The translations under genes were made by a program, and so were the position numbers. From Xiphophorus maculatus (taxonomy: Eukaryota; Chordata; Actinopteri; Cyprinodontiformes; Poeciliidae): DNA of 64,000 bases. The stretch lies in NCBI RefSeq assembly GCF_002775205.1, contig NC_036458.1, positions 24,020,368-24,084,367 of the forward strand, given 5' to 3'. Of this stretch, positions 3,501 through 62,110 are shown piece after piece. Every line of letters begins with the position of its first letter. Position 1 is the first letter of the stretch. The notes beneath the pieces were generated by a model. That model searched no databases, had not been told where the DNA came from, and saw nothing but the letters and a program-made list of their open reading frames with translations.

Positions 3501-6500
3501 GGTAACCTCCCCGTCTCTCTGCAGGTATCTAACAGGCATGGTGGACAAGAGGACCTTAGAGAAGTACGAGAGGGAAGCCAAGGAGAAGAACAGAGAAACC
3601 TGGTGAGTGGGCCGCCTTAGCTGCTCTGTCATAACAAACCATCTCTGTTTTCATTCTTTGTCCGTACTCTTTGCCAACATTTTGCAATTGTTGCAAGCAA
3701 AATTGCAATTAAAAAATTATGAAATTTCTTAATTTCAGAAATAAGAAATGAAATTAAAATCACATGTGAATAAGTTCCTTCATGCGATAATTAAAAATCA
3801 TTTCAGCAGTGAATGTAAATGAACGAGATACATTCATAATTCAACCATGGTGCTAGCGCTCATCATCCATCAGCCAATCAGAGGAGACATCAGCGTCTTA
3901 TTCGTTGAAGCAACAAGCCCCGCCTACTTGGGAGCAGCTATGGCATTCTGGGGAAATAGTAGTCGGTGATTTTACATTAGTTATGGATTCAATACGTTGG
4001 AATGACATAACATTTTATGAACTGTGATGCTGTGGGAGTTCTGGTGGAGCCAGCTGAACATCGTCTGAAAAATACAAAAACAACCAATCATCCTTCTACC
4101 ACTTCCTGTTGTCTTTTTTGTCATTTTCTCCAGTAGTCTCATCTGGCTGTTGATTACATGACTCATGATGCAAAAGGGGTTTGAGTTGCAGTTTTGCAAA
4201 ATAAATCTATTTTGCTACAGCTAGAAAAACTCACCCCATCCTGGCTCAAAAACCTTTTATGGAAAAACATGAGTGTTTTTCTTTTTTTTTAACTGTTGTG
4301 TTTCCATTAAGAACATTTATTTTCGTAAATTCAATGTGCTCAGTTTTATGGTTAATGGAAATTAGTTATTTGTGTTTGATCCACTGCTTGGTGTGTTTTT
4401 ATGAAGGCAGATGTAGGTCATTGTGAGGAAGTTGTAAAGAGCAGTCCTTTGACAGTCGGTGACGAGCTTTCCTCTCTGTCTTCAGGTATCTGTCCTGGGC
4501 TTTGGACACCAATCAAGAGGAGCGGGACAAGGGGAAGACTGTGGAGGTGGGCCGAGCGTACTTTGAGACGGACAAAAAGCACTTTACTATCCTAGACGCT
4601 CCAGGCCACAAAAGCTTTGTGCCGAACATGATTGGAGGCGCGTCCCAGGCTGACCTGGCTGTTCTGGTGAGTAACTCACAACTGACTCACTTGGGCTCCA
4701 CCACACACAGACATGCTAAAAACTGAATAATCTCCAAACTCAACTGCTAGTTTATGTTGAATATGAATGGGATTGCTTCCCAGTATAGAGTTCCCCTGTA
4801 TAGCTGACACCACTAACTACTCCCACAGGTGATCTCTGCCAGGAAAGGTGAGTTTGAGACTGGTTTCGAGAAGGGTGGACAGACCCGGGAGCACGCCATG
4901 CTAGCTAAGACGGCCGGTGTCAAGCACCTGATAGTCCTGGTCAACAAGATGGATGACCCTACAGTCAACTGGAGTCTGGAGAGGTGGGTACAGGGAAAAC
5001 AGGGGAGGGCTAAATGTAAGCCTGCTGCAATTAATCAATTACTCGCATGATTAATAAAAATGCGTTCAGTGATTTCCATTCTGATTATATTTTTTGAAGA
5101 GCAATTTTCTTTAGATTTTTTTAATTCATTTAATTGTTTGTGGTTGTTTTTTTTTTTTAAATTATTTATTATTTTTGGTTGTTTTTATTTGGGGCAATTA
5201 AAATATCTTCCAGTTGCAATGTGAAGTGTTATGTGCAAAATTAGTGTTTATTAGTCTTTCAAATGGTGACCTTCTATTATATTAATTGAAAATGGTCTGA
5301 AAACGACAATGTTATCAGACATTGTAATGATTTTAGGGACAACTCATTGTCCAGCAGAAATGATTGTGACAGGCCTAGTTCAGTGTTGATAACAGAGATG
5401 GTTAATGATTCATGCTCTGCTGTTTTACTGTTCTAATTATAGTCCTCTATGATTACTCTGAATGTTTGTTTGAATTCTAAATTTGTCCAGGTCTCACAGT
5501 ACTCAGCCAAATAAAACAGATCAGATGACAGTTATCAGCTCTGCTGCCATGTTACCAGCTGCTAGCTCACTGTGGTGGGCTAGCAGCAGGTTTGTCTGCA
5601 GGGAGTCTCCATGTTTCTCTGGGTACTCTGTCTTCCTCCTGAGCTCCAAACTAAGCTTGTACATGAGTCATTCTAAAGTTGCCCAGAGGGGTGTGTGTTT
5701 TCACATGGTACAAGTGTGTGTAGGGATGCTCATGTTTAAATTTAATGGCATTGTTACCCCAGCAACCTGCTAATGAGGAAACATAATTGCATGATTCCAT
5801 GTTGTTGGAGTGTTTCAGCCATTTGGATTTAAATAAGAAACCAAATTAAACCCCAGCATCCTTCATCCAGATGACCTGAGACAGTCCGAGTCCAGACTGG
5901 TGAACAGTATTAGCTTAAAAGCCCCAGCCCCATCTGCAATCCTTTAAATGAACAAGGTGTTGACTAGAGACAGATGGAGGCGTGTTGACCTGTCCATCCT
6001 GGGTTAACTGAGATCCTGCAACAGCTGATATTTACATGGCCGAGCCTGAGATGATGGTTTCATCTGTCATTTCCACCTCATGAATAGAAACTGTCTCCTT
6101 GGATCGCTGGGGGTGCAAAGGTTCTTCTTCTTGTCCCTTTCATGACTCACCGTCCTGGTCAAGACATGCTCAGCGTTAGCTGATGCTCAGCTGGGTTTGT
6201 TGTCTGGTTCTGATTTTTCCCACAGAACTGGGTCACACAGTGGTTGGACCTTTTTGGAAGGAGTTGAAAAGGTTTAGAACATCATGAAGATAGAAAAGTA
6301 CAAACTTTCCCCACCCTCTGTGCTGTCATTGGACAGCTGGCTTTCAGTGACCAAAGACATTTTTAAAACAGGAAGGTTGTGTAAAATTTATTTATTTAGT
6401 TATAACATTACTGTCATCAAAAACACACCTGGAGTGTTGCCTTGATTTTTTTATGCATGTTTCAGAAATCTTTAAATCTCCCGTGGCAACCATTCAGAAT

Positions 6501-9500
6501 GAAAACACACCCGGAACAGAGAGTCACATTTTCTCCGCTGCTCTGTCTTGGATCTGTAGTTTCCAGCCGAGCTTTCCCCTCACTATATGACTCCTTCTGA
6601 CTAGCGATCAGCAAATATCAAACACTGGGTGGAACTGCACACTTGCTCAACTCATTATAAAAGCTACTTTACAATCCAACACTCCAAGGAACGGTTGTAA
6701 ATGGAATAATGGAGAAGCATTGTTGTGATGGCTTCCTGAAGGTGGAGTGTTGGAAAGAGCAGAGTCTTATAGAGACAGAATCCAATGTCAAGGTGTCAAT
6801 TCATGAATTCAAATTTCTTTAGCTATGTTTGATACATACAGTATTTTTATAATTGAAGGTAATAGTGCCATTTTATAGCACAATGTGGCTGGAAAATACA
6901 TAATACTGCCCCTTTAAGTTACTCATTCTTGTCTATAGTTATTGAAATTGTAGATATTTTCTTTAATTTCTGTATATGTACATTGATGTTGGGATTAAAG
7001 GCAGCACATTTCTAACCTTCTCTGACTGAAATGGACACTTGTGCCCTGCTTTTACTCTTCACCCTCTCGTTTCCAACGCCAAGCATTTATTCAGATGAAC
7101 CTATGTGCTGCTTTGTTTCCTGGGCTGTTAGGTATGAAGAGTGCAAGGAGAAATTAGTGCCATTCTTGAAGAAAGTGGGCTTTAACCCAAAGAAAGACAT
7201 CCACTTCATGCCGTGTTCTGGGCTCACCGGAGCCAACCTGAAGGAGGCGACTGACATGTGCCCCTGGTATACGTAAGTCTGTTTAGCTTCCTCACAGTCA
7301 GGATAACCCAAGATCATCACCTTGTCCTTCTCTAACTGCTTTTATTTGAATTTCCAGAGGTTTGCCCTTCATCCCACACTTGGACAGTTTGCCAAATTTC
7401 AACAGATCTAGTGATGGACCAGTCAGATTGCCCATTGTAGACAAATACAAGGTGAGAGCATCTGTTTGTTTTTAATGCATGTTGTATGAAAACTGCTTCC
7501 TGAAACATAGAACAGATTTTGTTGTCATGAATTGAAAATGTGTTGCTCTCTCACCAGGACATGGGGACTGTGGTACTGGGAAAGCTGGAGTCTGGCTCCA
7601 TCAGTAAAGCACAACAGCTAGTCATGATGCCCAACAGGGTAAGTCATCCAATCAGATACAGACCCACCCTGAACCAGGGCAACCAGCGGCCCACCGGGTT
7701 TTTGTTTTAAAAAATGTTTTGACTGAAAATGTCAAATATTACTGGATAATTGTTATAGGAAGACATTGTTGACAATACTTAGACATGCAGCTACAGTGTT
7801 AAAAACAACAAATAAAAAAAAAAACAATTAAGATGATAAAAAATTTTTTCACATCTGTTAAATCTCAATGAAGTAATCAGACACTAACCATACGACCTCC
7901 AGCCGGCCACTGCACTGATCATCTCTGTATGTCTCTGTATGCCAGAGACAAACGGGAAGATTTAATTTAGGAGGCCAGGATTTATTGGTGTTAGAAAAAC
8001 TAGTTAAAATAAAAAAAAGAGGCCACACTTATCCTGATGGGGAGGCAAGTATAATACACTGGGGGAAACCCTTCTGCAGAGTTTCAACTATTTCATTTAA
8101 GGTTTTTGTGGCTCTATTGGTCTTTATTCATTAGTAGTTGGACAGAGAGGAAGACGTGTTCAGGAATCAATCTGGGATCCTATGTAGCCTCTGTGGTGCG
8201 TCTGATTCAACACATCCTCAATCTGGGATTATTTGACATTTCTTAGCAGACTTAACTACTAATGCTGATTCCATTTTCTGATCAGAGTTTCCCATGAGCA
8301 AAACTGGTTCAGATTGGGAGAGGCGATGTCACACAGTGTGCAGGAGCAGGTGCTGTCAAACAGAGTCAAAATGTTTTAACTATAAACATCAGTCTCTGTG
8401 TTCCCTTAACAACATGGACCCTTAAGGCTCCCCCACACACTTCAGCAGAAGTTCTGAAATCAGTTCTCAATGTTGATGCGTGACAAAAATTGTGTCATTT
8501 TGTTTGTGGAGACAGCTGCCTGCCGAACTCAACAGGCCAGGGCCAAACTATTTCAACAGAACTCTGTGTGAAGTGCTGTCTGACTGGTTAGAGGTTTGTT
8601 TATGCTGTGTTTTATGCAGAAAGACAATCACACAGGAGTGTTAACATTTCTCTTCAGCTAGTTCTCTTTCACTACCTGGTTTTTGTATGTAGGAAATCTG
8701 ATGCAATGAGGAACTATATATATGCATGGTTCTTCACTCTAATGGAACTGTCAAACATAGTTCTTTTATATGTACATGGTTCTAAGTAGTTCTAGCATCT
8801 GTAAACAAAAACCAAATAATTGAAGCATCATGTCACTGACTTAGAGAAATCCCTCAGACTGAACATGCATAGAGTGACAAAAATGCTCACTGAATCTAGA
8901 TCATTTCTTCTCCACACAGCTCAGAAAAACAGCCTCTGCCCTCCCTGCAGAGGCCACTAGTCTCTGCATGATGTTTCTGCATCTCGTTTTTCTGTCACCA
9001 TAATTAGTTTTAAGGTCAAAATGATCAGAGGCGTTGATTTCTGATATGAGTTACATCAGGAGGGAAAGATTACTGTTTTTTTCCCCATTTAGCTCACTTT
9101 CTGTTTTAGGTATTAAAACATTTCTCATTACTGTTGCATCTCTGATTTGAGTGTCTGTGTTCCTGCAGCATGTGGTGGAGGTATTGAGTCTGCTATCGGA
9201 TGACGTGGAGACGGACGATGCAGGACCTGGTGAAAACCTCAAGCTGCGACTGAAGGGAATCGAGGAGGAGGAGATCCTGCCGGGATTTATTCTGTGCAAC
9301 TCTGACAGTCTCTGTCATTCAGGGCGCACCTTCGACGCCCAGGTGAGTCTGCTCGGCACAGCTCCTCTAGTGCAAGAAAAGTGAAATGTGTTAGATCTAA
9401 CAAAAACAAATTTACAGCACCTTAATCGTGAAATTAAATTATTTCAGTCCATAAACTTGTTAAGGGTCCATAATCCAGGCCTGGGAAAAAATGTCTTAAT

Positions 9501-21637: not shown

Positions 21638-21736
21638 TAATATAATATAATATAATATAATATAATATAATATAATATAATATAATATAATATAATATAA
21701 TATAATATAATATAATATAATATAATATAATATAAT
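21638..21736. repeat. (TATAA)n pentanucleotide array
   Basis: About 20 units of the 5-base repeat TATAA, almost perfect. The reverse-strand open frame made of YYIIL repeats is an artefact of it. Confidence 0.95.
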
Positions 21737-22864: not shown

Positions 22865-23012
22865 CAGGGGTCTTCAACTCTGTTCCTCCAGGGTCCTGCA
22901 ACTTGTAGATGATTCCCTGGTGGTCCATCACACCTGAGTCAAGCATGCAGTCCAGTTGTCCAGAGTCCTGCTAAGGACACCGGCCCACAGGGACTAGGTT
23001 TGAAGACCCCTG
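22865..23012. mobile_element. hAT-like MITE, 148 bp
   Basis: Terminal inverted repeats CAGGGGTCTTCAA (left) and TTTGAAGACCCCTG (right). The interior has the blocks CTCCAGGGTCCTGCAACTTG and CACACCTGAGTCAA, common in non-autonomous hAT elements of vertebrates. No exact 8-base target duplication is visible. Confidence 0.75.
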
Positions 23013-23014
23013 CT

Positions 23015-23420
23015 TACATGATCAGGTTACCTCCACGGATGACAGGCCGTTTAGGTGGCACTGCTGTCATCTGTAAAATGACTTTTCTTTTATGTCAAAT
23101 TATCGCTTCAAGTACCTGCAATTCCTTTGAGTTGATCATGGTCCGAATCGCCAAGATAGAACCAAATGCTGTTCTGATTTATCGACCATCTGGTCCGGTT
23201 TCACCTTTTCTTTTAGACTTTCAGGACTTTTTAGCTTCTACAGTCAAGCTAAATAAGATCTTCATCACTGGGGATTTTAATATTCATGTTGATCCTACAA
23301 ATCGTTCTGCTGTGATGGACTTTCTTAATTTTATGGACTCTTTTACCTTCTCACAGCATGTCTGAGCCTACTCACCCTGCAGGTCACACTTCAGACCTGG
23401 TTTTTACTTATGAACTCAAT
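23015..23420 (+). pseudogene. L2/Rex1-like LINE endonuclease fragment, frameshifted
   Basis: The frame from about 23030 reads RLGGTAVICK...FELIMVRIAK...LIYRPSGPVSPFLLDFQDFL...KIFITGDFNIHVD, the apurinic-type endonuclease of non-LTR retrotransposons (GDFNIH motif). After FSQHV the frame shifts by one base and continues as EPTHPAGHTSDLVFTYEL. The reverse transcriptase is missing. Dead fragment. Confidence 0.85.
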
Positions 23421-23814
23421 CTTAGCGATTAAAGTGTCTTACGATAAAACTTGTTGTTTTTAGTGTCTCTTTTAATATGTCTTGTTATTTGGAGATGACT
23501 TCTCAAGTTGCCAGCAAGCACAGACACTTTATTGACAATGTTGTACTTGGGGAGTTTTCTTCCTCTTTTCATTTACACTTTATTTCCTCCTGATGATGAC
23601 AGAAGGTTAAAACCTAAAGGGGCCCGGTCTTTCAGTCTGTGGCCCCAAGGCAGTGGTACAGTCTATCCTTGCTGCTCCGTTTTGTTGACTCTGTGGAGGT
23701 TTTTAAAAACCAACCACAAACATTTTTTATTTTTCCAGGCTTTTTATCTCTTGATTTAATTGCTTCTTATGTTGGTTTTATGTTTTTTGTATGGTTTTAA
23801 GGTTGATTTCTATT

Positions 23815-27500: not shown

Positions 27501-30500
27501 GTTTTAATGTTTGTTGGCTTTTCCATGTGTCAGGAATTCCCAGTTCGAAATTAATTATAGATGAAGACGTTGCAGACGTTGGCATCATAATGACAGATGA
27601 CTAAGGAAAATAACAACCGATCGTCATTGCAATGTGGAACAACAGTTTTACTTTTGCTTGATTTTCTAATACTTGGACTCCACAAGCAAGCAGGAAAATC
27701 CTCAAACAAAAACAGGACATTAGGAATTTCTCACAGTGGCTGAGCTCAGGTGAACGCTGGAAATGGTGGAAGAACAGAACGGAACAGGAAATCCATCCTA
27801 AAAGCGAATTATGTTCTGTTCTGATCACCAAATTCAAAGTTCACTGCTTTACACAACAGTGACACAGGATAAAAGTGGTCTGACTTTGAGTTCATAAAGT
27901 GAAGATTCATGTTGTCATGTATCTGTTGAGGTACCGGTCACCAGAATGCTTCAGTCGCTGTTTTACTCATGAACTGCTCCATTAAACCAAAAGTTTCAAT
28001 TATGTCACTAATTTTAGATCTTTAGTATGCTTTATTATTTAAATGCATTCACGTTGAGCAGACAACACAAATGACTAAATACTTTCTTACAGAACACACT
28101 ATGGCTACACCTTTAGAAGATGTTGGCAAACAGGTGAGTAGTTTCCATCCTTGTGTGTTAGTGGTATGTCACTGGCTCCACACTCTTTAGCTATGAAAGT
28201 ATGTAACATTCATAAAAAATATTTTTACATATTAGTTCAAGCTGTCACTATGTTGCCGCAGTTTGTTATGAGACAGACAATCTGTGAAAAGATGGAGCTC
28301 CTCTGCCTCCTAATGCTAAGTAGAAACAACCAATCAGAGTGAGGATTGGTTATTTCTTCAAGATCTCCAGGCTTACCCTAACAATACCATTTGTTCCAGT
28401 TAATGTACTTTTTGAACAATATTGGACAAAAACTACATCATAACTATGTTACCTTCAGTTGTTATAAAAATGCTGGATAAATCAGGAGGCGGGTTTTAGC
28501 GCTGTCAATCACCCTCTGTGAATTCTAAGGCATAGCCACCAATGATGGTGGATAAATGGTTTTCCTAGTAAGTTGTTTCTCCGCACATTGAACTGTGACA
28601 ACATGATGTTGATTGATCTCACTAAGCTCCTCCTTCTGGCTCTGATTGGTTGTTTTTGGTTGGTGCATTTCTCCAGACGGTAGTAGCACCTCCGGGAAGA
28701 GGTGGAGGAGATGGAGCTTTTCACAGATTATCTGTCTCATAATGTTCTGTCATGACATGGTGACAGTTTTAACAAATATGTAAAAGATATATATTTTTAG
28801 AAAAGTTACATACTGCAGTATTAAACAGAAATGAAGCCAAAATGAAAAAGCTACAAGTAGATAAAGTAAGTACACCCTTGAATTTGCAGCCAGATGCTAT
28901 CAGATACTGCTACTTGTGTCTCGTGTGTCTAAAGGACATTGTTCTAGAATTCTTGCGCTTCATTCAGATTCAGCTTTGGGGCGCTAAGCTCTGCTGCCAT
29001 GTTGTTTGACATAAGAGGTCGTCTCATGGCAAACCATCCAAACAACAAGGCTCATTCTAATTCAATACTTAACAACCTGTGTGGGCCTGCAGCCTCATGG
29101 AGCTCCTGGGTTCTTTTTGTTATTTCTCCGAGGATTTTTGGTTCTGGCTATGAGGTGAATTTGCTGGCATGAGTGAAGTTGGTCCTCCCATGTTCATTCT
29201 TAAGATTTTAATAAGGAGATAATCAAAGGTCAACACATTTTCTAAAACAAACAAAGCCGGTCTTAAAGGGGCAGTATTATCTGTTTTCCAGGCACATAGT
29301 TCCATTTTATAGTACAATTTAATAACTATGTTACCTTCAGTTGTTATAAAAATGCTGGATATATCAAATATGACTTAAAAGAAATTTGACTTTGTAATTT
29401 AACGCCTTGAAATTGGGCCTTTGTCTCTTTAAAACCTCCTGCTCTTTTTGAAACTCTACCTTCAGGAAGTCCTCACAACATGGCTCCTCTATTAACACTT
29501 GAACAATGTTTTTGCGAGCTTTGCTCTGAGAAGTAGCTTCTATAATGAGTGGAGCTGATGCTCATTTCCGCCAGGGGTTTGCTAATTGCTGCTGGCTAGT
29601 CTGAAGGAGCTGAGTGGAGGAGTTACGGGACAGAGCTTCTCTGAGAGGCCAAAGCTTGGAAACTTCAGCTCTGAGGAGGAGCTGTGCCTCAAAGGCGGGG
29701 CTAAGTCCAACCAGGCGTTTTGCACAATTGAATGGTTGTCATGGAGATTAAAAGATTTCTCAAACATGAAATAAAAGAATCAAGGCAACACTGCAGGTAT
29801 ATTTTTGATGAGAAAATAACATTATAACATGATGAAAAGCTCAAACAAGTTTAACTAATGCTGGCCCTTTAAGCAGTTCTATGTGTCTGGGAAAGTTTGA
29901 TCCAAAATGACAAATAAAACATGTAAGCCAGATGACCTCCTGACCTTTATGGAAATGTTGTTTTTGTCATACTGAATAGTGAGATGGGTGGAGGGTCGGA
30001 TGGAGCTGATGTTTCATGTCCTTTGGGTTGACCCAGGTCTGGCGGGGGGCCCTCCTGCTGGCTGACTTCATCCTCTCTGAGAAAGACACGTTCAGTGGGG
30101 CCACCGTGCTGGAGCTGGGAGCAGGGACAGGCTTAACCAGCATCGTCATGGCAACCACAGCCAAAACAGTCTACTGCACAGGTATGAGGCCATTAGGTAG
30201 GGCTGCTCAGAAATGGTGGGAAAAATCATTGTGTTTAGCAAAGTCACTCATTGAATGTGTAAACCTGTTTGCATTTAAAAGCTCGAGGTGCATTTCAGCT
30301 TATCTTTACTTTCCTAGTCGCTTCTCCTCAGTAAGTTAAATCAGATGGAAGGTGTAAGAAGACATGTTGCAGTCTGTCTGCGCTGACGCTGAATGTGTTT
30401 TCCAGACGTGGGTGAAGACCTCCTGAGGTTGTGCCACAGGAACGTGTTTCTGAATCAACACATGACAAAACCAGCAGGTCAGAATGTTCACATTCCCACT

Positions 30501-33500
30501 TTTCTCTTTTAAAGTTGTGCGCTTTAGATCGTTGCCAAAATGATAGATGTATTAATATTATAGTTAGAAAATATTGATACCAAAGCTAGTTGCACAGCTG
30601 GTGCATGTCGGTACAGTCCTACTGACAACTGATTTTTGTTGCATTATGTGACTGATGGGAGTGAATCAGGGTCTAATTAACTGATGCTCCTATTTTCTTT
30701 CTTTCCTCACATGATAAGCATTCTGCTCTATTTGTAGATTAATACAACTTTATATCATTCATTCTCATTTAGTTTTTTACCAAAGCGAAATTTCAGGTTG
30801 GGTCTGCTTTGGGATCCAGCTGTAAATCTATAAACTCTAAATGACTTTTTGTTGACATTTTATGTCAATTAGAACATTTTTAATCTGACATTTTTTTTTA
30901 AATTATTTTTTTTACATGTTCAATACTTATTTTACCCAAAACGTAAAATCCAAGGTTCAGCTCATAATAATAATGAAAAAAACTACATTCAAAGTTACAA
31001 CTACTCATAAGTGATTAATTCAGAACAACTGTGACATGTATTTATTTTGGACCATATAAGCTTATAAACTGACTGCGAAGCTTTAATGCTTCTTACATTT
31101 TGGGTCATTCCAGGCAGGAGGCCACCTGCAGGACGAGAAGTTGGTTTTGTCTGACATCTGGCTTTACAACTTTATTTTGAAGGGATCTGAGGAAAAGGAA
31201 AAAAGAAAAATCTAAAATATCAAGGAAGTCAGGGTTGCAACATGATGGATAGAGCAGTGGTTCTGATCCTCGGTTCTGATTCAGCTCCGTCTCTAGTTCC
31301 TCAGCTGCTGCAGACGCCTGTTCATGTGCTGCTTCCTGTGGCAGCAGAGGAACACCTAAAACCTGCCGGACGAACAGTAGACATAGTTCATTGGAGCTGT
31401 GTTTTAACTGTTGTCTGAGAAGATGTTAAATTTGAGCTCAAACACTGCGACTCTCATCTACCTTAGCGTAGCTTCTTTATCTTTGCCAGCAGCAGGTTAC
31501 ATTCATGCATTTTTTCCCACCCAGCAGGCGGGGAGGTGAAGGTAAAACATCTCAACTGGCTTCAGCACAGTCTTTGCACAGGTAACACCCTTCTGCTTCT
31601 TCTCTTAGATATCAAGCATATTAGTCAGTTCATAACCCATATTTTAATGTCGAACAGTATTAAAGTTACTAGACAGACTTTTTGCACAAATAGTCCTGAA
31701 AAAAAAAGTTTGTACTGCACTGAACCCCATTGAAAACCTCATTGTTATTCCACCAAATATTTATCCTGAACTCTTCCTGAGTTCAAACATTAGTGTTGTT
31801 GTTTCTAAATTGTTTTCTTTGCATTATTTGAGGTCTGAAAGCTTTGACCGTTTCTCATTTTCTGCAAATAAATGCTACGTTTTTGCTTGGAATTCCAGAG
31901 ACATGTTGTCAGTAGCTCATAGAATAAAAGAACAATGTTCATTTTACTCAAACATATGACTATAAAGAGTGAAATCAGAGAACTGATCGTTTTAAGTGGC
32001 TCTCTTCATTATTTCCAGTCCTGTACATGTAACTTCTTATCTGGAGTTCATCATCCATTAACCCAGCAGCTGATGATGTCACTGGACTGCTTACTTCAGT
32101 TCAACTTTTAATCATATCTGTCCACCAGTTGTGTTTAGGTTGCAGCAGGACCCTTGATGGATTTATAGATAATTTGTTAGCCTGAATGCAGATTTGAGCA
32201 GAATGATCTGCTGCAGCATCACTCCACCAACTCCACCAACTCCACCAATCACCTGCTCTTTCTGCTCTTCCTCTCTGCTTGTGTAGATGCTGACCTGGAG
32301 TTCAGCTGGACTGAAGAGGAAGTCGCTGATCTTTACGACAACACCGACTTCATTATTGCAGCTGACGGTGGGTTTGCAGTTCTAATGAAAATAAGACCAA
32401 CTTTCCATTTCTTCGTTCATCTTGATGTTCGTTTGAAGCGAGTGCATTGTACAGGCATGATGAGTCCAGTGGCTGGACGGCAGGTGCAGTTATCATGAGG
32501 TGTAGTCACTAGATGCAAATGAATTGCAAAATGTTTAATCGGTGAAAAAAAAACTTTAAATCTGTGTTTTCCTCTACACACTCATTTTCAGACCAGGAAG
32601 TGGTGCATGATGGTCAAGTTCAAGTTTTTTTTTTTTTTTAAATGGGACAATATATATACATGAACATTTACATGTAAATACATGAGATTATAGCCAGGTG
32701 GATCATTTCCATCTCTAGTCTCACTGGCAGGTTGATTTCAAAGCACAATAATAAATACAGGGTTAAAAAACACTAAAGAACAAACAGAATGAGAAATACT
32801 CAAGACAACAATCCTGACAAGAAGTCATTATGTCTAATATGTTTTCATTTGCCTCCATGTTTTATTCTAAGGGAAAGATGATCGAGTGATAATTTTTTTT
32901 TTGCATTTGTCACCATTGAAGCTGCACAGAACAGACTGTCTAATGTTTCCATGTTTGTGTCTCCAGTTTGCTACGACGACGATCTGACAGACGGCCTCTT
33001 CAGGACTCTGTACCGACTCTGCAGCAGCTTTAATCACTCCTGCACAGTTTTCATTTCTTTAGAGAAAAGGTAAAGAAAAACTGTCTATCACTGTTTGTTC
33101 ACCTAAACTGACAGTTCAGACTGCCAGCTTTGTAGAGCCGCGCCTCAAAATACAAGACATTGTAACTGCAGGAAAAGGAGGCGCTATAGAGTTAGTCTCA
33201 GTCTTAGGACACACTTCAGTCTTTAATTCTAATAAAATTTGAAAACTTTGTATCATTTTTCTTCCATTTCACATTTATGCGTTGCTTTTAATTTCCGTCA
33301 CAAAAGATTCCAACAGAATGTGCCGAATTTTGATTCAGTTTAAATGAGTTTAGTGCCATCTTGTTACAAATTTTGTCTTAAAGTCAGGTACACACACTTC
33401 AGTTTGATCCTGATCAAGTTCAGTTTATTAATCAGATCAGTTTATGTCTGAGGAAACCCAGCAGATTGCAGCGGTCACTCCTCCAACAATCACTTGACTT

Positions 33501-34996
33501 TACAGCAATCAAAGTCAATGCACCAGACTGAACATGCATCAGTCTGGTGCATGTTCAGTCAAAACCAGAAATGTATGCTATATAAAAAGACACATGCATT
33601 TTTTTCACACTGTCTGACATGAAACCAGAATGAACTTTTCCCGTTTCAGGTCAGTTAGGATTATCCAAATGTTTTATATTTGCTAATCCCAGAATAATAT
33701 GACAGGGAATTTTTTTAATGGAATTTTCATTGTTGGTAATCCTAACTGATCTAAAACAGGAAAAGTTCATTCTGGTTTCATGTCAGACAGTGTGAAAAAA
33801 ATGCATGTGTCTTTTTATATAGCATAAATTTCTGGTTTTGACTGAACATGCACCAGACTGATGCATGTTCAGTCTGGTGCATTGACTTTGATTGCTGTAA
33901 AGTCAAGTGATTGTTGGAGGAGTGACCGCTGCAATCTGCTGGGTTTGAAATAAATATAAATATCATCAGCATAAGAGAGGAATCCCATGTTCTCTGATTA
34001 TTATACCATTTCTAAATGGTAATACATGGTAAAGAGAATGGTCCAAGCGCAGAGCCCTGTGGTGCTCCAGGATTTGGCAGTAATTTTCTTCCCTTCTCTG
34101 TCTTACAGGATGAACTTCAGTCTGCGCCACATGGACATTTGCTGTGAGGCCTACAATCATTTTAAGCACTGCCTGTCCCAGCTGCAGGACATGGAGGACG
34201 GCCGGTGCAGATTCAAAGTGGAACACGTTCCTTTAAACTTCTCACAGTTTCTTCTATATGAACGTATTGAGCAGCTGGTGAGAAAAACCTTTACACCCAC
34301 AGTTTCAGCCACACTGGTTTTCTGTATTTAACCCGTCTCTCTCCCAAACTAAGCTACAGCTGCCACTAACTATCCTATCCTCTGTTTTCATCCCATACAT
34401 TGCACTACATGCTCAGTTTATCTGTGTTTCTCTGCTAGATGAAACCATTACAGCTGCTAATGCTGCCATTAGCTCTTTGTTTTTTCCTTAACATAGAAAG
34501 TATTTCTGGATCCAGCTTTTTCTGTTTTTGTGTGAATCCATCCATTTTTTTTGTTTTGTTTTTCATAGCAGTTGTGAATTTGTGCTGTATAAACAAACTG
34601 CTCTGAACTGGATTAATATGGATATTTTTTTGCGGCTATTAGAAAATACTTTGTTTTCTTATTACAGTGTGTTTTATGCAGTGAAACTAGACATTTAGGA
34701 GGAGACGAACTTACAAAGATGTATTAGGGCCATTTTAGATATAGAAACAAAAAAGAAAAAAAGTTTGAACGGTTGAAAATTTGCTAGGAAAAAAAATCTG
34801 AAATTTGAGATTAACCTCAGAAAATTTAAAGCTGCAAAAGTTAATTTCGGAGCTTTTGGCAGAAATTAACTCCCCCCCCTTATCTACAATGGTTGTCATA
34901 CTGGTTTTTGAATAACACTTCTTGTTTTTGCAGGAGCTGTGGAAGATCACTGCCTCTTCTCTTGAATCTGAACAAACCCAGTCTGACTCTGACTGA
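24555..34996 (+). CDS. mettl22: METTL22 protein-lysine methyltransferase
   Basis: METTL22 is a family 16 (METTL21-like) SAM-dependent lysine methyltransferase; the human enzyme modifies the nuclear protein KIN17. Exons: 24555-24660, 25315-25510, 26596-26747, 28093-28133, 30037-30181, 30406-30477, 31528-31581, 32287-32367, 32967-33069, 34109-34277, 34934-34996. All phases join to 393 aa and TGA (human about 404). The N-terminus MDQMTFKHDTVLSDVH matches the family start. LDEDGDLDV, an acidic run and EHTMATPLEDVGKQVWRG precede motif I VLELGAGTG (189-197). The motif DVCY (282-285) is the family DxxY position, then YDDDLTDGLF. The C-terminus is ELWKITASS, as in the family. The first and second coding exons were assigned by fit to known METTL22 and by phase. 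Confidence 0.96.
25706..25860 (+). repeat. Tc1-type transposon end in METTL22 intron 2
   Basis: CAGTCAGAAAAATAAGTATT then TGAACACCCTGCGACTTTGC and TCACTTAGAAATCATGGAGG are well-preserved blocks of a terminus common in fish Tc1-like elements. No partner end was seen in the same intron. Confidence 0.7.
26685..26720 (+). repeat. (GAT)n run coding poly-aspartate
   Basis: Trinucleotide run inside METTL22 exon 3, coding DSDDDDDDEE. It is a coding microsatellite, so its length may vary among individuals. Confidence 0.9.
26748..28092 (+). other. METTL22 intron 3
   Basis: No exon is required (phase 1 on both sides) and no known repeat was identified. Small open frames at 27218 and 27601 lack family features. 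Confidence 0.5.
28175..28815. repeat. Inverted-repeat MITE (TGTCAC...GTGACA type)
   Basis: The left arm (about 28205-28345) and right arm (about 28640-28790) are inverted copies. Paired blocks are CAATCTGTGAAAAGATGGAG with its complement near GGAGCTTTTCACAGATTATC, AACCAATCAGAG with CTCTGATTGGTTG, and TTACATATT with AATATGTAA. The outer end TTACATACTGCAGTA is a common fish MITE terminus. Related partial copies are at 50690-50920 and 63600-64000. It lies in METTL22 intron 4. Confidence 0.7.
29263..29872 (-). repeat. TTAA-type MITE copy, reverse orientation
   Basis: It begins TTAAAGGGGCAGTATTAT and ends GGCCCTTTAA. Internal blocks are the reverse complement of the 53383-54006 copy (for example CATGGCTCCTCTATTA and TGCTGGCTAGTCTGAAGGAG). 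Located in METTL22 intron 4. Confidence 0.8.
30478..31527 (+). other. METTL22 intron 6
   Basis: AT-rich; no exon or recognised repeat. The exon at 31528 follows a doubled acceptor CAGCAG. The second AG was chosen because it gives PAGGEVKVK without an extra residue. Confidence 0.5.
31582..32286 (+). other. METTL22 intron 7
   Basis: Unassigned intronic sequence, with a short CTCCACCAA triplication near 32222-32248. Confidence 0.5.
32368..32966 (+). other. METTL22 intron 8
   Basis: AT-rich intronic sequence with a T homopolymer near 32625. Nothing else recognised. Confidence 0.5.
33454..33946. repeat. Long near-perfect inverted repeat (2 x 210 bp)
   Basis: The left arm (33454-33663) and right arm (33737-33946) are reverse complements of equal length, with about four mismatches and no gaps by eye. 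A 73-base AT-rich spacer separates them. Each arm contains a smaller inverted repeat (TGCACCAGACTGA ... TCAGTCTGGTGCA). It lies wholly inside METTL22 intron 9 (33070-34108), so the pre-mRNA can fold into a long double-stranded stem. No clear target-site duplication or transposon terminus is visible. It may be a foldback-type element, a local inverted duplication, or an assembly product. Confidence 0.92.
33950..34085 (+). repeat. Unclassified interspersed repeat next to the inverted repeat
   Basis: ATCATCAGCATAAGAGAGGA and AAGAGAATGGTCCAAGCGCA then CTGTGGTGCTCCAGGA resemble a dispersed fish repeat I have seen in similar order. The class is not certain. It ends just before METTL22 exon 10. Confidence 0.35.
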
Positions 34997-36631: not shown

Positions 36632-40707
<4,076 letters not shown>

Positions 40708-47594: not shown

Positions 47595-47713
<119 letters not shown>

Positions 47714-48124
47714 CAGTACAGACCAAGAGTTTGGACACACCTTTTAATTCAATGAGAATTAATCCTTAATAAAGGAAATAACGTTTCCTTTATTTTCATG
47801 ACTATTGACATTGTAGATTCACACTGAAGGCATCAAAACTATGAATATTACATGTGGAAATATGCACTAAACAAAAAAGTGTAAAACAACTGAAAATACC
47901 CCTTATATTCTAGTTTCTTCAAAGTAGCAACCTTTTGCTGTGTTTACTGCTTTGCACACACTCTGCATTTTCTTGATGAGCTTCCAGAGGTCGTCACCTG
48001 AAATGGTTTTCACTTCATAGGTCAACCTGCCCTGTCAGGTTAATAAGTGGGATTTCTTGCCTTATAAATAGTCATGAAAATAAAGAAAACTAGACAGGTT
48101 TGTCCAAACTTTTGGTCTGTACTG
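47714..48124 (-). mobile_element. Internally deleted Tc1-like element, 411 bp
   Basis: Inverted ends: CAGTACAGACCAAGAGTTTG (left) and the complement of CAAACTTTTGGTCTGTACTG (right), flanked by TA on both sides. The inner parts (TTTACTGCTTTGCACACACT, CACCTGAAATGGTTTTCACT, AAGTGGGATTTCTTGCCTTA) are known subterminal parts of a Tc1 lineage. The transposase is deleted. Confidence 0.8.
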
Positions 48125-48136
48125 TATATATAAAAC

Positions 48137-48214
48137 CAGTACAGATCAAAAGTTTGGACACACTTTCTAATTGAATTCAATGAGAAGGTGTGTCCAAACT
48201 TTTGGTCTGTACTG
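48137..48214. mobile_element. Minimal end-to-end Tc1 derivative, 78 bp
   Basis: CAGTACAGATCAAAAGTTTG on the left and the complement CAAACTTTTGGTCTGTACTG on the right form about 28-base arms with only about 20 bases between them. Same ends as the neighbour at 47714-48124. Confidence 0.8.
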
Positions 48215-48429
48215 TATGTACAGTATATATAACATCTGAAGGTTGTTATTTCTTGATTGTGCTATAAAATGAAAATAAAGAAAACCCATTGAATTAGAAG
48301 GTGTGTCCAAATTCTCATTGAATACTTTGTTCTGTACAAAGTTCCATTTGCACAACAGCAGGTGAAATTGATTGTCAATCAGTGTTGCTTCCTAAGTGGA
48401 CAGTTTGATTTCACAGAAGTTTGATTTAC

Positions 48430-53382: not shown

Positions 53383-54006
53383 TAAAGAGGTAGTGTCATG
53401 TAAAATTTTACTTTTTTAAAGCTTTACATCATGTTATAATGTTATTCCCTCATCAAAAACATGTCTGGAGTGTTGCTTTGATTCTTTCATGTATGTTTGA
53501 GAAATCCTTCAATCTCCATGGCAACCATTCAGATGTGCAAAACGTTTGGGGGAACCTAGCCCCGCCTTTAAGGACGAAGCTCCTCCACAGTGCTGCAGCT
53601 TCCAATCTTTAGACTCACAGAACAGCACCCCCCCTCCCCCCGCCCCTCTGCCAACTCAGCTCCTTCAGACTAGCCAGCAACAATTAGCAAACACCTGCAC
53701 ATCTGCTAAGCTCATCATAGGAGCTACTTCTCAGAGCAAATGCTGGTAAGAATCCCTATTAACCCTTTAATCTTGTTAAGGGGTTAATAGAGGAGCCATG
53801 TTGTGATGACTTCCTGAAGGCGGAGTTTCAGAAAGAGCAGGAGATTTTAAAGAGACAGAGACCCAATTTCAAAGAGTTCAATTACAAAGTCAAATTTGTT
53901 TTAAGTCATATTTGACAGATACAGCATATATTATATATATTTATGGTGTGTATAAACATACATCAGGCATCATGTTCCTGGAAAACACATTATACTGTCC
54001 CTTTAA
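53383..54006 (+). repeat. TTAA-type MITE, most complete copy
   Basis: The left terminus TTAAAGAGGTAGTGTCATGT and the complement of the right terminus ACATTATACTGTCCCTTTAA are inverted repeats, each ending in TTAA, as expected for piggyBac-like insertion. 624 bp, non-coding. Other copies or pieces: 1259-1400, 2044-2502, 6378-6917, 29263-29872. Confidence 0.85.
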
Positions 54007-55021
54007 AACACCCTGTAATTTAAAAATAAGGAACTTTAACATTAATTAGGCTCATGTCGCCTTCTTTCCTGTAGCTCAGTTGCACCTCTTGCTCAGTTTA
54101 ATCTAATCTGGGAAAAAAAGAAAAAACATACAAAACCGGCTTTCAGGGTGAAATTAAGCAAACACACATTCATATTTACTGCTCCACATGAGCTCACAGT
54201 GACACACACTCACACACACAGCCTCTCTTTCATAGGAAACAAGAGTAGGCAACCTTTGACCTTAACCATTCAGCAGTCTGGAAAATACCTAGCCTGGAAT
54301 CGATCAACACTCCTCCTGACCAGACACTCAGCACCGCCCTACCTCCCACTATCACCCACCCTGCCTCACCCCACCCCGCCCCAGCCCGCCTCCAAACACC
54401 TCCTCATACTTTAAGCCACGTGGCTCCTCCATCCCCGCTCCATCGACTCCACAGCACTGACTCTTTGAGTGGGAAGCATCACTGCTTTCAAGACTTTACA
54501 GGACTGAACATAAAACACACATTTTGTTGGAAACTCACAGTTAAACAAACATTCGCCAGAATTACACTGAGATCATCTCTAGCTTCTCAGCGTTCAGGAA
54601 GCTTTCTGGCAGCATCGCAGAACAGAACCATGTCATTTATTCTCTAAATGCTGGGCATGTTCTGAACATCTGTCTTCTATAACACATCAATACACTGATG
54701 ATCTTTGAGCTTCATATCATGTTCTAGTTAGTAGTGGGACAAGATTAAAATGTTTCATTGAGTCCATCATTCACTAGAAATGAATCGCATTTTAATCAAA
54801 ATACTATTTATCACCTAAATAACATTATTAATTGGTCGTTTTTTGCCTCTAAATGATTAAATATACATTTGATCTGAGCAACAAAAATATTTGCTTTTTT
54901 AAATGTGTTTAATTAATACAATTTTAATCAAAAAACAATACATAGACAAGATAAACATTTTTGATTATTTATACATTAGCCTGTTATACAAGTTGATGCT
55001 GTGTACTTCACATTGTATCAG
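54007..55021. other. Unassigned sequence
   Basis: Short (CA)n near 54200 and C-rich stretches. No exon or known repeat identified. Confidence 0.4.
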
Positions 55022-55129
<108 letters not shown>

Positions 55130-55269
55130 AGAGATAACAAATGAAAACTACAAAATGCAAAATATATTCAAAAAAGATTCACAAAATAAATTATGGCATG
55201 AAAACCAGAGAAAAAGGTTTTCAACCAAGGTGGAAAAGGTTTATTGTTCTGTTCATCACTAAACACGTC

Positions 55270-57376: not shown

Positions 57377-57491
57377 GTCCTCCTGCGTGGCTCTCATCAT
57401 GGCCGTCTCAGCCTCACTCTGCCGGGTGACGGCTGATAAGTTTGCTGTCAGACTCACTTGTTCAAGTTGTGGGGAACATTCAACGCTGTCG
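56142..57491 (+). other. Weak two-exon open frame, unidentified
   Basis: Segment 56142-56198 (after TGCTTCAG, before GTGAGA) and segment 57377-57491 (after CTCCATAG, before GTGAGT) join in phase to a 57-residue open stretch, FICERNPVLSGATLTAKTR then SSCVALIMAV and so on. The phase does not fit the candidate exon at 51855-51926. No family recognised; may be chance. Confidence 0.12.
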
Positions 57492-60400
57492 GTGAGTTTG
57501 TAGCTCTGAAAAAAAAACCATCGACTGTTGAGTGTACCCTAACTCCTGAGTTCCCGTCGGTTTGTGTGCTGCATCGCAGCCATCATCTGCAACTCAAGAG
57601 CAGGCAGAGGCTGCAACCTCTGCTTCCAAAACACAGGTCCGAGGGCTAAAATCAGCACTGGCATTCCATGCATGGTATTTGTTGACATGCCTAGCTAAAA
57701 TACTTCTTCATGCTCCTAGCTTCTAGCTCCTTTTTCTGCATGTGTTTTTGTGTGCACTTACTTCCATATTAGTCATCATTGTCCTCAAGTCAGATAAGAG
57801 ATGATTTGAGGAAATTTCTTTCTGTCTTTATGGTCTGTTTTTTAATGCTTGTAAAGCCTCCACATTGACCGTTAAGGAAATGTTTTACCTGGCTGGGGGT
57901 TAAATGTTCTCTACAGTCTCCTGCACTTTGAGCATTCAATGCGCCTCACTGTGATTCTGCTTGATGTGTTATCTTTTATTTAAAATGTTATTTATTTGAA
58001 TAATTTTATATTTTTTATTTTTATTTTATTTTATTAATCAATCTGACTACAGTTACCTCAATTCAATATATTTCTAATAAATTTGGTATCGTTCACTTCA
58101 GTTTTATTTTTTCATTCATCTCTTCTTTTCAACGTTCTTTCCAAGGCAGAAAGGTTCAACTCATATCTGATTGAAGGTAACAGAACGGAGTCCAAATCCA
58201 TTACAGTTTCAGGCCCAGACTTACTTTAATGTTGTGTTATCAGGTCCAAATTTAAACAGAACACACACACACACACACACACACATCACGTGCAAACTCT
58301 TACAACTTCAACCTCAACATCTTTATGTGAAATTATTTTATTGCTTCACTTTTCAAACACTTTCTGCTATTGCTTAGATGGAAGTCAGAGTATGCTTTTC
58401 TTTGTTTCTTCGGTAACAGTCTTTTGGGTGGTTGATGTCTTTTGGCCATGTTGATCCTGTAGGCTGTAAGTGGTGTCCTGATTTACGCCTGAAGGTAGGT
58501 TATATTTTCACTTTGCCTAACAATGCATTCAGCTTTCTGTTACGTTAACAAACCTTTCACGGTGCAGGATTCCAGTTCACATTCATCGCTGTCGGTGGGT
58601 TAATGATGCCGTCAACTCGCTGGTGGATGAATGTCAACTGTGTCCATGCAAGGCACATATCCCTAATCGAGTTTACATGTACAACATCAAATGATTGCAT
58701 TTCTAGGCCACTGACCAAATAAATACTTTGGACTGCTGACTAAGTCGTCATCTTTTTTCTAGAGGGATTTAGCTGTTTTCTTTCTGTTGTTAAATTCAAA
58801 ATGTCACCAGTGAAGGCATAGAGAAGAAAAAAATTAACTTGTCGCCAAACGTAAGGAAGTTTTTTGTTTGGTTGACTGTCTGCTGCCAGTAAATCTTTTA
58901 CCATTGGAAAACCTGTTTATGTTCCCTCAATCAGAGCTATGTTTGTCAGGAAAATCCATTTGTGAGTGGAGCGGCAGAGTTAAGTATGTGGGTTGTTTCC
59001 AATAAAAACTTCCTAAATACTCTACCAATGCCAACATGCTTTTCACAGCCTCATTCGCTCTCACAAGTAAACTAGGCTTTTCTTTACTGGAAGCAATCTG
59101 AGTTCAGAGAGATATCGGGATGGAATTCTACAACCAGTGGCAATTCCATATCTCCTATGTTTGGGACCAAACTCGACCCAAACTCACACCCAGACAGCTG
59201 GGTTTATCAGAAACTAGCTCCAGAACTTTCTGGCATTATGGCTGCAGTCTTGACTTCAACCCCACCCTACAGTTGTAGGATCTGTTTGGGTGTTGTGATC
59301 ATCTCAGATAAACCAACATCCTGGCTGGGGAATGGGATGCCATCCATCCCACAGCAGTTTTATGAACCTTTACTTAAACAGTACTCATTTTGCATCTTTC
59401 TTTTTATTTTTATCATTCAGTTTGCAATCTTAGTCATTTTTTTCCCCAAAGGTTTTGTTGGCTCTAGAGGCCTTTATTTGATCGTTTCAAAGAACAGATC
59501 AAACTAGTCTTACATCAGGAAGGAAAAGCCTCCCTTTTTTTCTTTGGGAGCATAGCTTTCAATCATCTTAAATCTGGGTTTCGCGCCTGCCCAAAGAAAA
59601 TCACTCACTGCATTTATTTTAAATGTAAAGGTGGTGGGGGAGTAAGAACAACGTCACAGGAGCAAGGTTTGATCACCTCGTTTTCGCGACTCCAACTGAG
59701 AACAACAGAGCAACAATAAGTGCCAAAAATCAATATTTCTTTACAGACTTTTCAAATTGAAATAACTTGTTGTCTGGTTGTGAGTAGAGCCTCCTTGAGT
59801 CGCCCCAGAATCCAGAAGAAACATAGAAGGGTCCATAGCTAGTCCAGAACTTTGTGCTTGAACACACGACCATAATGGCTGAACCTGGACACTGTAGATT
59901 CTACCATGTAGAATAAGCCCAGAATGCCTTACACCAAAGGCATGGCTGAGGGTATCAAAGAGGGGCTGAAGAAGGACGGAGCTCTGACAGCTGAAGAGAG
60001 TCTGTGGAGGGAGGACAGCAGTAGGGAGGTCTTCCCCCAGCAAGGAGTTTGAGCCGTTACGACCTGAACATCTGCCTGTCAATACAGACAATACGGCCAA
60101 ACAAATCTAAGATAAAGTTCTTAGGGCTGAATTCAAAGAAATTAAATGATAGTTTATGTTATACCTTGTTTTTGTGCTTATTTTTATAATATTGTACAGC
60201 TATGAATAAAGTAGTCAAACCAGCAAGGAATAAAACTTGCATACAGCTGATGTGTCATATTTTTCATTGGCTGTTGGCAACACAAATGCAGTTGGGTCAT
60301 AATCAGTTCACATTTACTGCAGTACCTCATCACGTCCAGATGTAGTTATGAAAATACTTGGACTGTAACTGACATCGGATCAGTTCCCTTCTCACACTTG

Positions 60401-61514: not shown

Positions 61515-62110
61515 AACTGACTCCACCGTCTGTCCGACTACGGCAGAGTCATCAGAGAGCTTCTGAAGGTGGCAGCGTGTGGAGCTGAAGGAGAAGTCTG
61601 CAGTCTTAGAGGGTGAAGAGGAGTGGTGCCAGTACTGTTCCCTGTGGGGCGCCAGGATATGATGTCATCCTCCTTGATGCCAGGCTGGTTGGTGAACTGC
61701 ACCAGAAGATGGGTGAGAACCAAGCTGTCCAGGATCTTCATCAGATGTGAGGTCAGTGCTAGCAGCATGTAGCTGCTGAGGTCCTGTGGATGTTTGACCT
61801 TTGGCACCAGAACCACACAGGACGTCTTACACAACTGTGGTACGGTCACCAGCGTCAGGTTCAGGTTGAACATGTATCCCATGATGCCACACAGCTGATC
61901 TGAGCAGCACCTCGGGATCCTGGAGCTGATGCCATCCTGACCTGCCGAACTTTCACAACTTGAGCCTCACCTGAAGTTGAAAATGACAAAATGGTGGTGG
62001 GGGAAGGAGGCTGTGGGATGATCGTGCTGAAGCACAAAAAGGTGGTGGTGGGTGGGGGGAGTGATGGCTTACAGCTGAGGGGTGAAGTTTGACATGACTT
62101 CATAGATAGA
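61515..62110 (-). pseudogene. L2/Rex1-like LINE reverse transcriptase fragment with internal deletion
   Basis: The minus frame reads GYMFNLNLTLVTVPQLCKTS then PKVKHPQDLSSYMLLALTSH and LMKILDSLVLTHL, the N-terminal finger part of the reverse transcriptase. It then jumps through TNQPGI to pieces matching the GTVLAPLLFTLYTSDF area in another frame. The catalytic core between is deleted. Confidence 0.8.

Follow-up and report, generated by a model that had tools for sequence, protein, structure and literature searches.

Inverted duplications and inverted repeats formed by local copying have been described at several scales. In the parts of the reports available here, the spacer of human inverted duplications was single-copy and had a short stretch of inverted homology at its edge, and the spacers that had been sequenced measured 766 to 70,466 bp (PMC3907307). 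Fold-back priming in yeast was described as beginning at short imperfect inverted repeats, one example being an 11-bp imperfect repeat, and in clones with a sae2 deletion, mismatches within that priming repeat had been corrected (PMC10622511). Local template switches in the gold-standard great-ape set reached 128 bases at most, with a median of 12 (PMC7954356), and small inverted triplications averaged 148/160/148 bp with a 30-bp spacer (PMC13334657). The present analysis concerns a long inverted repeat in 64,000 nucleotides of Xiphophorus maculatus DNA (contig NC_036458.1, positions 24,020,368 to 24,084,367), the whole of which is called the window here and numbered from its first base. The repeat lies in an intron of a Methyltransf_16 family gene, and the favoured reading, with a probability of roughly 0.52, is that of a local inverted duplication produced in a single step, either through fold-back priming or through template switching by the polymerase.

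Structure of the inverted repeat

Self-comparison of the window gave two arms of 210 nt each that were 98% complementary and aligned without gaps. The whole repeat, arm to arm, spanned 493 bases and was made up as follows.

33454..33663, forward strand: left arm, complementary to the right arm at 206 of 210 positions
33664..33736, no strand: spacer between the arms, 73 bases, 27% G+C
33737..33946, reverse strand: right arm, complementary to the left arm at 206 of 210 positions
33518..33560, forward strand: nested overlapping palindromes in the left arm, from the inverted-repeat scan
33840..33882, reverse strand: the same palindromes, mirrored in the right arm, from the same scan

An earlier sequence-only reading had described a near-perfect 2 x 210 bp inverted repeat at 33454..33946, with gapless arms, about four mismatches, a 73-base spacer and a smaller palindrome inside each arm; its position proved exact, and the remaining details were likewise recovered. 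The mismatched pairs were 33573/33827, 33642/33758, 33647/33753 and 33650/33750, which left unbroken complementary runs of 119, 68, 4, 2 and 13 bp between the arms. The first of the palindromes in the left arm (33518-33552, mirrored in the right arm at 33848-33882) had a perfect 14-bp stem and a 7-nt loop, and the second (33526-33560, mirrored at 33840-33874) had 17-nt arms with 94% complementarity around a 1-nt centre. When the window was scanned for inverted pairs with arms of at least 40 nt lying no more than 5 kb apart, the 210-nt repeat was the longest of the 119 pairs found. A TA array at about 47.6 to 47.7 kb supplied 23 of the 25 longest pairs displayed.

The mismatches were unevenly placed, with three of the four in the innermost 22 pairs and one in the outer 188. 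The probability of such a cluster by chance was 0.0036, with a boundary set post hoc, and 0.015 for three of four mismatches within any 9 bases. The cluster thus points to a pre-existing, imperfect inverted repeat of about 22 bp, on which a 3' end would have folded back.

33642..33663, forward strand: inner 22 bases of the left arm, complementary to 33737-33758 at 19 of 22 positions; candidate older short inverted repeat that would have primed the copying

Flanking sequence and host intron

The right arm was directly followed by the remnant of what appeared to be a long interspersed nuclear element (LINE), which was antisense to the host gene and reached the arm.

33947..34077, reverse strand: decayed, frameshifted LINE-like reverse-transcriptase fragment (PGAPQGSALGP ... 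SYADD), from two motif frames and an RVT_1 match

The motif PGAPQGSALGP was read in one frame and SENMGFLSYADDIYIYF in another. With the two frames joined by an X, the RVT_1 profile was matched at E 0.0055 and 16.9 bits, against a curated cut-off of 29.6, and the frames submitted one at a time gave no profile match. Because the joined match was weak and the single frames had none, the LINE label rests mainly on the two motifs. Comparison with solved structures likewise gave weak matches, the best (E 0.32) being a reverse transcriptase from a group II intron. No LINE relatives were retrieved from viral contigs with a degenerate YADDTQ pattern. The LINE-like frame stayed open for 25 codons into the right arm, where KPSRLQRSLLQQSLDFTAIK followed YADDIYIYF without a stop; the RVT_1 match itself ended three residues inside the arm. 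On the other side, the intron to the left of the left arm gave no reverse-transcriptase match in six frames, although so weak a profile could be missed there. Two weak matches were obtained from the left-flank frames, both below cut-off (Ig_2, E 0.16; DUF6128, E 0.033). With a reverse-transcriptase fragment on the right and none matched on the left, the repeat thus does not look like a clean drop into a continuing LINE fragment.

The intron that holds the repeat was delimited by its splice sites.

33070..34108, forward strand: GT...AG intron of 1,039 bases holding the repeat, in a Methyltransf_16 family gene (METTL22-like), by splice-site reading

The reading of the upstream exon ended in ...AAAAG and was followed by the donor GTAAAG at 33070, and the acceptor TCTTACAG ended at 34108. 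The exon that follows (34109-34277) reads as the next-to-last coding exon and is separated from the right arm by 162 bases; the apparent last coding exon starts at 34934. Translations of the exons, with the pieces joined by eye, matched Methyltransf_16 (PF10294) in Pfam at E 1.3e-19 and METTL21-type proteins among the solved structures at a best E of 2.4e-9. The repeat had been placed earlier in intron 9 of METTL22, of which the intronic position stood; the name METTL22 itself fits the Methyltransf_16 and METTL21-type matches, which are consistent with it and would not prove it.

Origin of the repeat

In the mechanism proposed for a local inverted duplication, a 3' end exposed at a break, or at a fork that had stalled, would fold back, or alternatively the polymerase would switch template. 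The folded end would pair through the short imperfect inverted repeat now seen as the inner stem of about 22 bp, copy about 190 bases backwards and outward, and be rejoined to the neighbouring DNA, so as to leave an arm, a unique spacer and an inverted arm. The locus has the form expected of fold-back or template switching, with a reverse-complement copy near the original and a spacer that is single in the window. What is observed is the geometry, the clustered mismatches, the lack of a target duplication beyond chance, and a LINE-like fragment to the right with no reverse-transcriptase match to the left; that a duplication took place, that the inner stem served as its primer, and which of the two arms came first are inferred. 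The LINE-like fragment at the right arm, taken together with the clustered inner mismatches, would speak for local fold-back copying rather than for the insertion of an intact element, and the nested quasi-palindromes have the look of a previous event of this type on a smaller scale. No result obtained here marks the inverted repeat as an unusual system. As a local inverted duplication, the repeat would be a natural fold-back copy of about 200 bases, between the ape template switches, with their maximum of 128 bases (PMC7954356), and the human cases of chromosome scale (PMC3907307), as far as the available parts of these reports extend.

Several points weigh against this origin. As judged from the same partial sources, the copied length of 188 to 210 bases exceeds the maximum for gold-standard great-ape template switches (PMC7954356), the 73-base spacer is far shorter than any in the range sequenced in humans (PMC3907307), and mismatches of the kind that were corrected in the yeast priming repeats are supposed to have survived here (PMC10622511). 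The clustering is judged from a total of four mismatches, within a limit that was set after the fact. With so weak an RVT_1 match on the right, the lack of one on the left says little. Symmetric, near-perfect arms around an AT-rich centre would fit a miniature inverted-repeat transposable element (MITE) as well, and a transposon family is possible, the copy number being known for the 64-kb window alone.

The main rival is accordingly a foldback-type MITE with long terminal inverted repeats that was inserted in the intron and whose target duplication or outer ends were lost or altered, an origin that we regard as possible but rather doubtful. Typical MITEs have near-symmetric arms, an AT-rich unique centre and a length of about 0.5 kb. 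The repeat shares the near-symmetric arms and the length, its unique centre has 27% G+C, terminal inverted repeats are present at both ends, and other multi-copy repeat families occur in the same window. A recent MITE is also expected to carry a target duplication, but no direct repeat of at least 2 bp was listed at the exact arm ends. Within 3 bases of the ends on either side, the best exact direct repeat was 4 bp (GAAA/GAAA, with the left end placed 3 bases inside the arm), and an exact 4-bp pair was reached by 17.7% of 3,000 random site pairs in the window. Two 5-bp direct-repeat pairs, with one mismatch, lay near the arm ends. A wider scan added some exact pairs of 5 to 6 bp and an 11-bp pair with one mismatch, GAGGAAACCCA/GAGGAATCCCA, 30 bases past the right arm; however, 11-bp pairs with at most one mismatch were found in 8% of 300 random placements, and the right member of this pair falls inside the LINE-like fragment. 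Set against the random controls, neither the 4-bp nor the 11-bp pair exceeded chance. An intact MITE insertion was set back for this reason, and the earlier statement that there is no target duplication held to the extent that none exceeded chance. The LINE should, moreover, resume to the left of an insertion, and no reverse-transcriptase match was found there, which is a weak argument given how poorly the fragment scores. If the repeat is a MITE, it would be an ordinary one.

Further copies were looked for in the window and in sequence collections. The 64-kb window held no second copy of the arm (best other match, 16 bases at 8855-8870), which says little, and no second copy of the spacer (best other match, 19 bases at 6606-6624). 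Local alignment of the flank, arm and spacer to the remainder of the window brought up no clear second copy, and a third, direct arm copy, as in inverted triplications, was not found in it either. Exact flank and arm patterns of 16, 17 (one base degenerate) and 18 bases were matched in 13 viral, 26 viral and 9 prokaryote contigs, respectively. BLAST of a 911-base region against those 48 viral and prokaryote loci, with E up to 0.01, aligned no stretch of more than 37 bases, and the pattern matches were therefore taken as chance. Phage records gave no match to the repeat region; fish introns are not expected in viral, phage or prokaryote collections. Of the primer-length strings of the region, two were matched in the literature in one paper each, both apparently on other subjects, and six were matched in none. 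One paper containing both METTL22 and inverted repeat was retrieved, an enhancer-trap study, and no published account of this inverted-repeat locus was found in the one literature collection searched. That the left flank and left arm belong to a dispersed fish repeat found no support when motifs of such a repeat were sought in the window, in viral contigs and in the literature; as none of these covers fish genomes, the idea is unsupported rather than refuted, and it was not used. One such motif was matched with two mismatches at 23551-23567, as it was in 22 of 100 shuffles.

That the repeat is an artefact of assembly or library preparation, with a read fused to its own reverse complement, is improbable. 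Inverted chimeras are known from some library methods, but a read-through chimera would usually mirror the flank too, and the four arm differences, the fixed ends 210 bases out, the unique spacer and the unlike flanks on the two sides all argue against one.

Predicted RNA duplex

The repeat also yields a predicted intronic duplex RNA beside an exon. Folding of the 493 bases gave -392.1 kcal/mol, compared with a mean of -118.2 for 100 shuffles (z -51), and the lowest-energy fold of the whole 1,039-base intron kept 207 of the 210 arm pairs. The long double-stranded RNA that had been claimed for the sense transcript is thus predicted as a strong duplex. A pre-mRNA duplex of such length is a plausible ADAR substrate. 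Under a local fold-back duplication the effect would be incidental, a pre-mRNA duplex of about 207 pairs that would be a candidate for ADAR and would be lost with the intron; on the modelled fold, double-stranded RNA and ADAR editing are plausible as by-products of the repeat.

A conserved functional hairpin that steers splicing of the methyltransferase transcript or feeds ADAR or Dicer would be in keeping with the very strong predicted duplex, with the persistence of the 207 arm pairs in the whole-intron fold and with an exon 162 bases away. It is nevertheless very unlikely, as Rfam gave no match in the repeat at gathering thresholds (its single match in the window was mir-181) and youth alone can give near-identical arms. 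At usual vertebrate rates, an arm divergence of 4/210 would put the age of the repeat at no more than a few million years, provided that homogenisation has not kept the arms alike. Also very improbable is that an old intronic repeat was kept near-perfect by repeated germ-line fold-back homogenisation, proceeding outward from the imperfect inner stem, with its duplex RNA tuning methyltransferase splicing or editing.

Other features of the window

A dispersed repeat family was present at 2041-2502, 6399-6918, 29260-29850 and 53384-54009 (with 1263-1396), the pieces listed being 66 to 83% identical. By eye its ends resembled TTAAAGGGGCAGTATTA / TACTGYCCCTTTAA, and it looks like a MITE family with TTAA ends. 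A short palindromic element at 48080-48240, with TGTCCAAACTTTTGGTCTGTACTGTAT on both sides, had related pieces by the TA array at 47698-47753; we take it to resemble the Tc1/mariner-type MITEs of fish, and a pattern from it matched no viral contig. Another repeat, of about 0.6 kb, had two copies (3739-4362 and 36859-37445) that were 74% and 79% identical in two pieces. The open frames 22913-23365 (forward strand) and 61538-61966 (reverse strand) appeared by eye to be remnants of a LINE endonuclease (ITGDFNIHVD) and a LINE reverse transcriptase, respectively, and pieces of the two gave no match in Pfam. The mir-181 precursor was located at 57464-57548 (Rfam, 66.4 bits, E 5.1e-13), a match that by itself points to animal DNA. 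Long, nearly perfect microsatellites were present at 21638-21736, (TAATA)19.8; 47596-47713, (TA)59; and 55023-55132, (GACA)27.5.

Comparison with known systems

Fold-back duplications, known as human copy-number variants and from Mre11/Sae2-deficient yeast cells, are among the closest likenesses. In the available parts of the reports, the copy likewise lies inverted next to its original, across a spacer present once, and a short inverted homology marks the spacer edge (PMC3907307, PMC10622511), for which the inner stem would be the candidate counterpart here. Those duplications are of chromosome-arm scale, whereas the arms here are 210 bp, the spacer is 73 bp and the event would be interstitial. 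Template switches and inverted triplications, as far as they are covered by the same kind of partial source, share the local reverse-complement copying that gives near-perfect inverted repeats (PMC7954356, PMC13334657). In scale, the repeat is similar to the inverted triplications, whose copies measure 148/160/148 bp and whose spacer is 30 bp (PMC13334657). It differs from them in that their third, direct copy has no counterpart found in the window. Foldback transposons and MITEs have in common with it long, near-perfect terminal inverted repeats and a short AT-rich centre; unlike them, the repeat shows no target-site duplication beyond chance at its arm ends. Finally, it is like the ADAR-edited inverted repeats of introns, such as inverted Alu pairs, in forming a long intramolecular duplex within an intron, which is here predicted from sequence alone.

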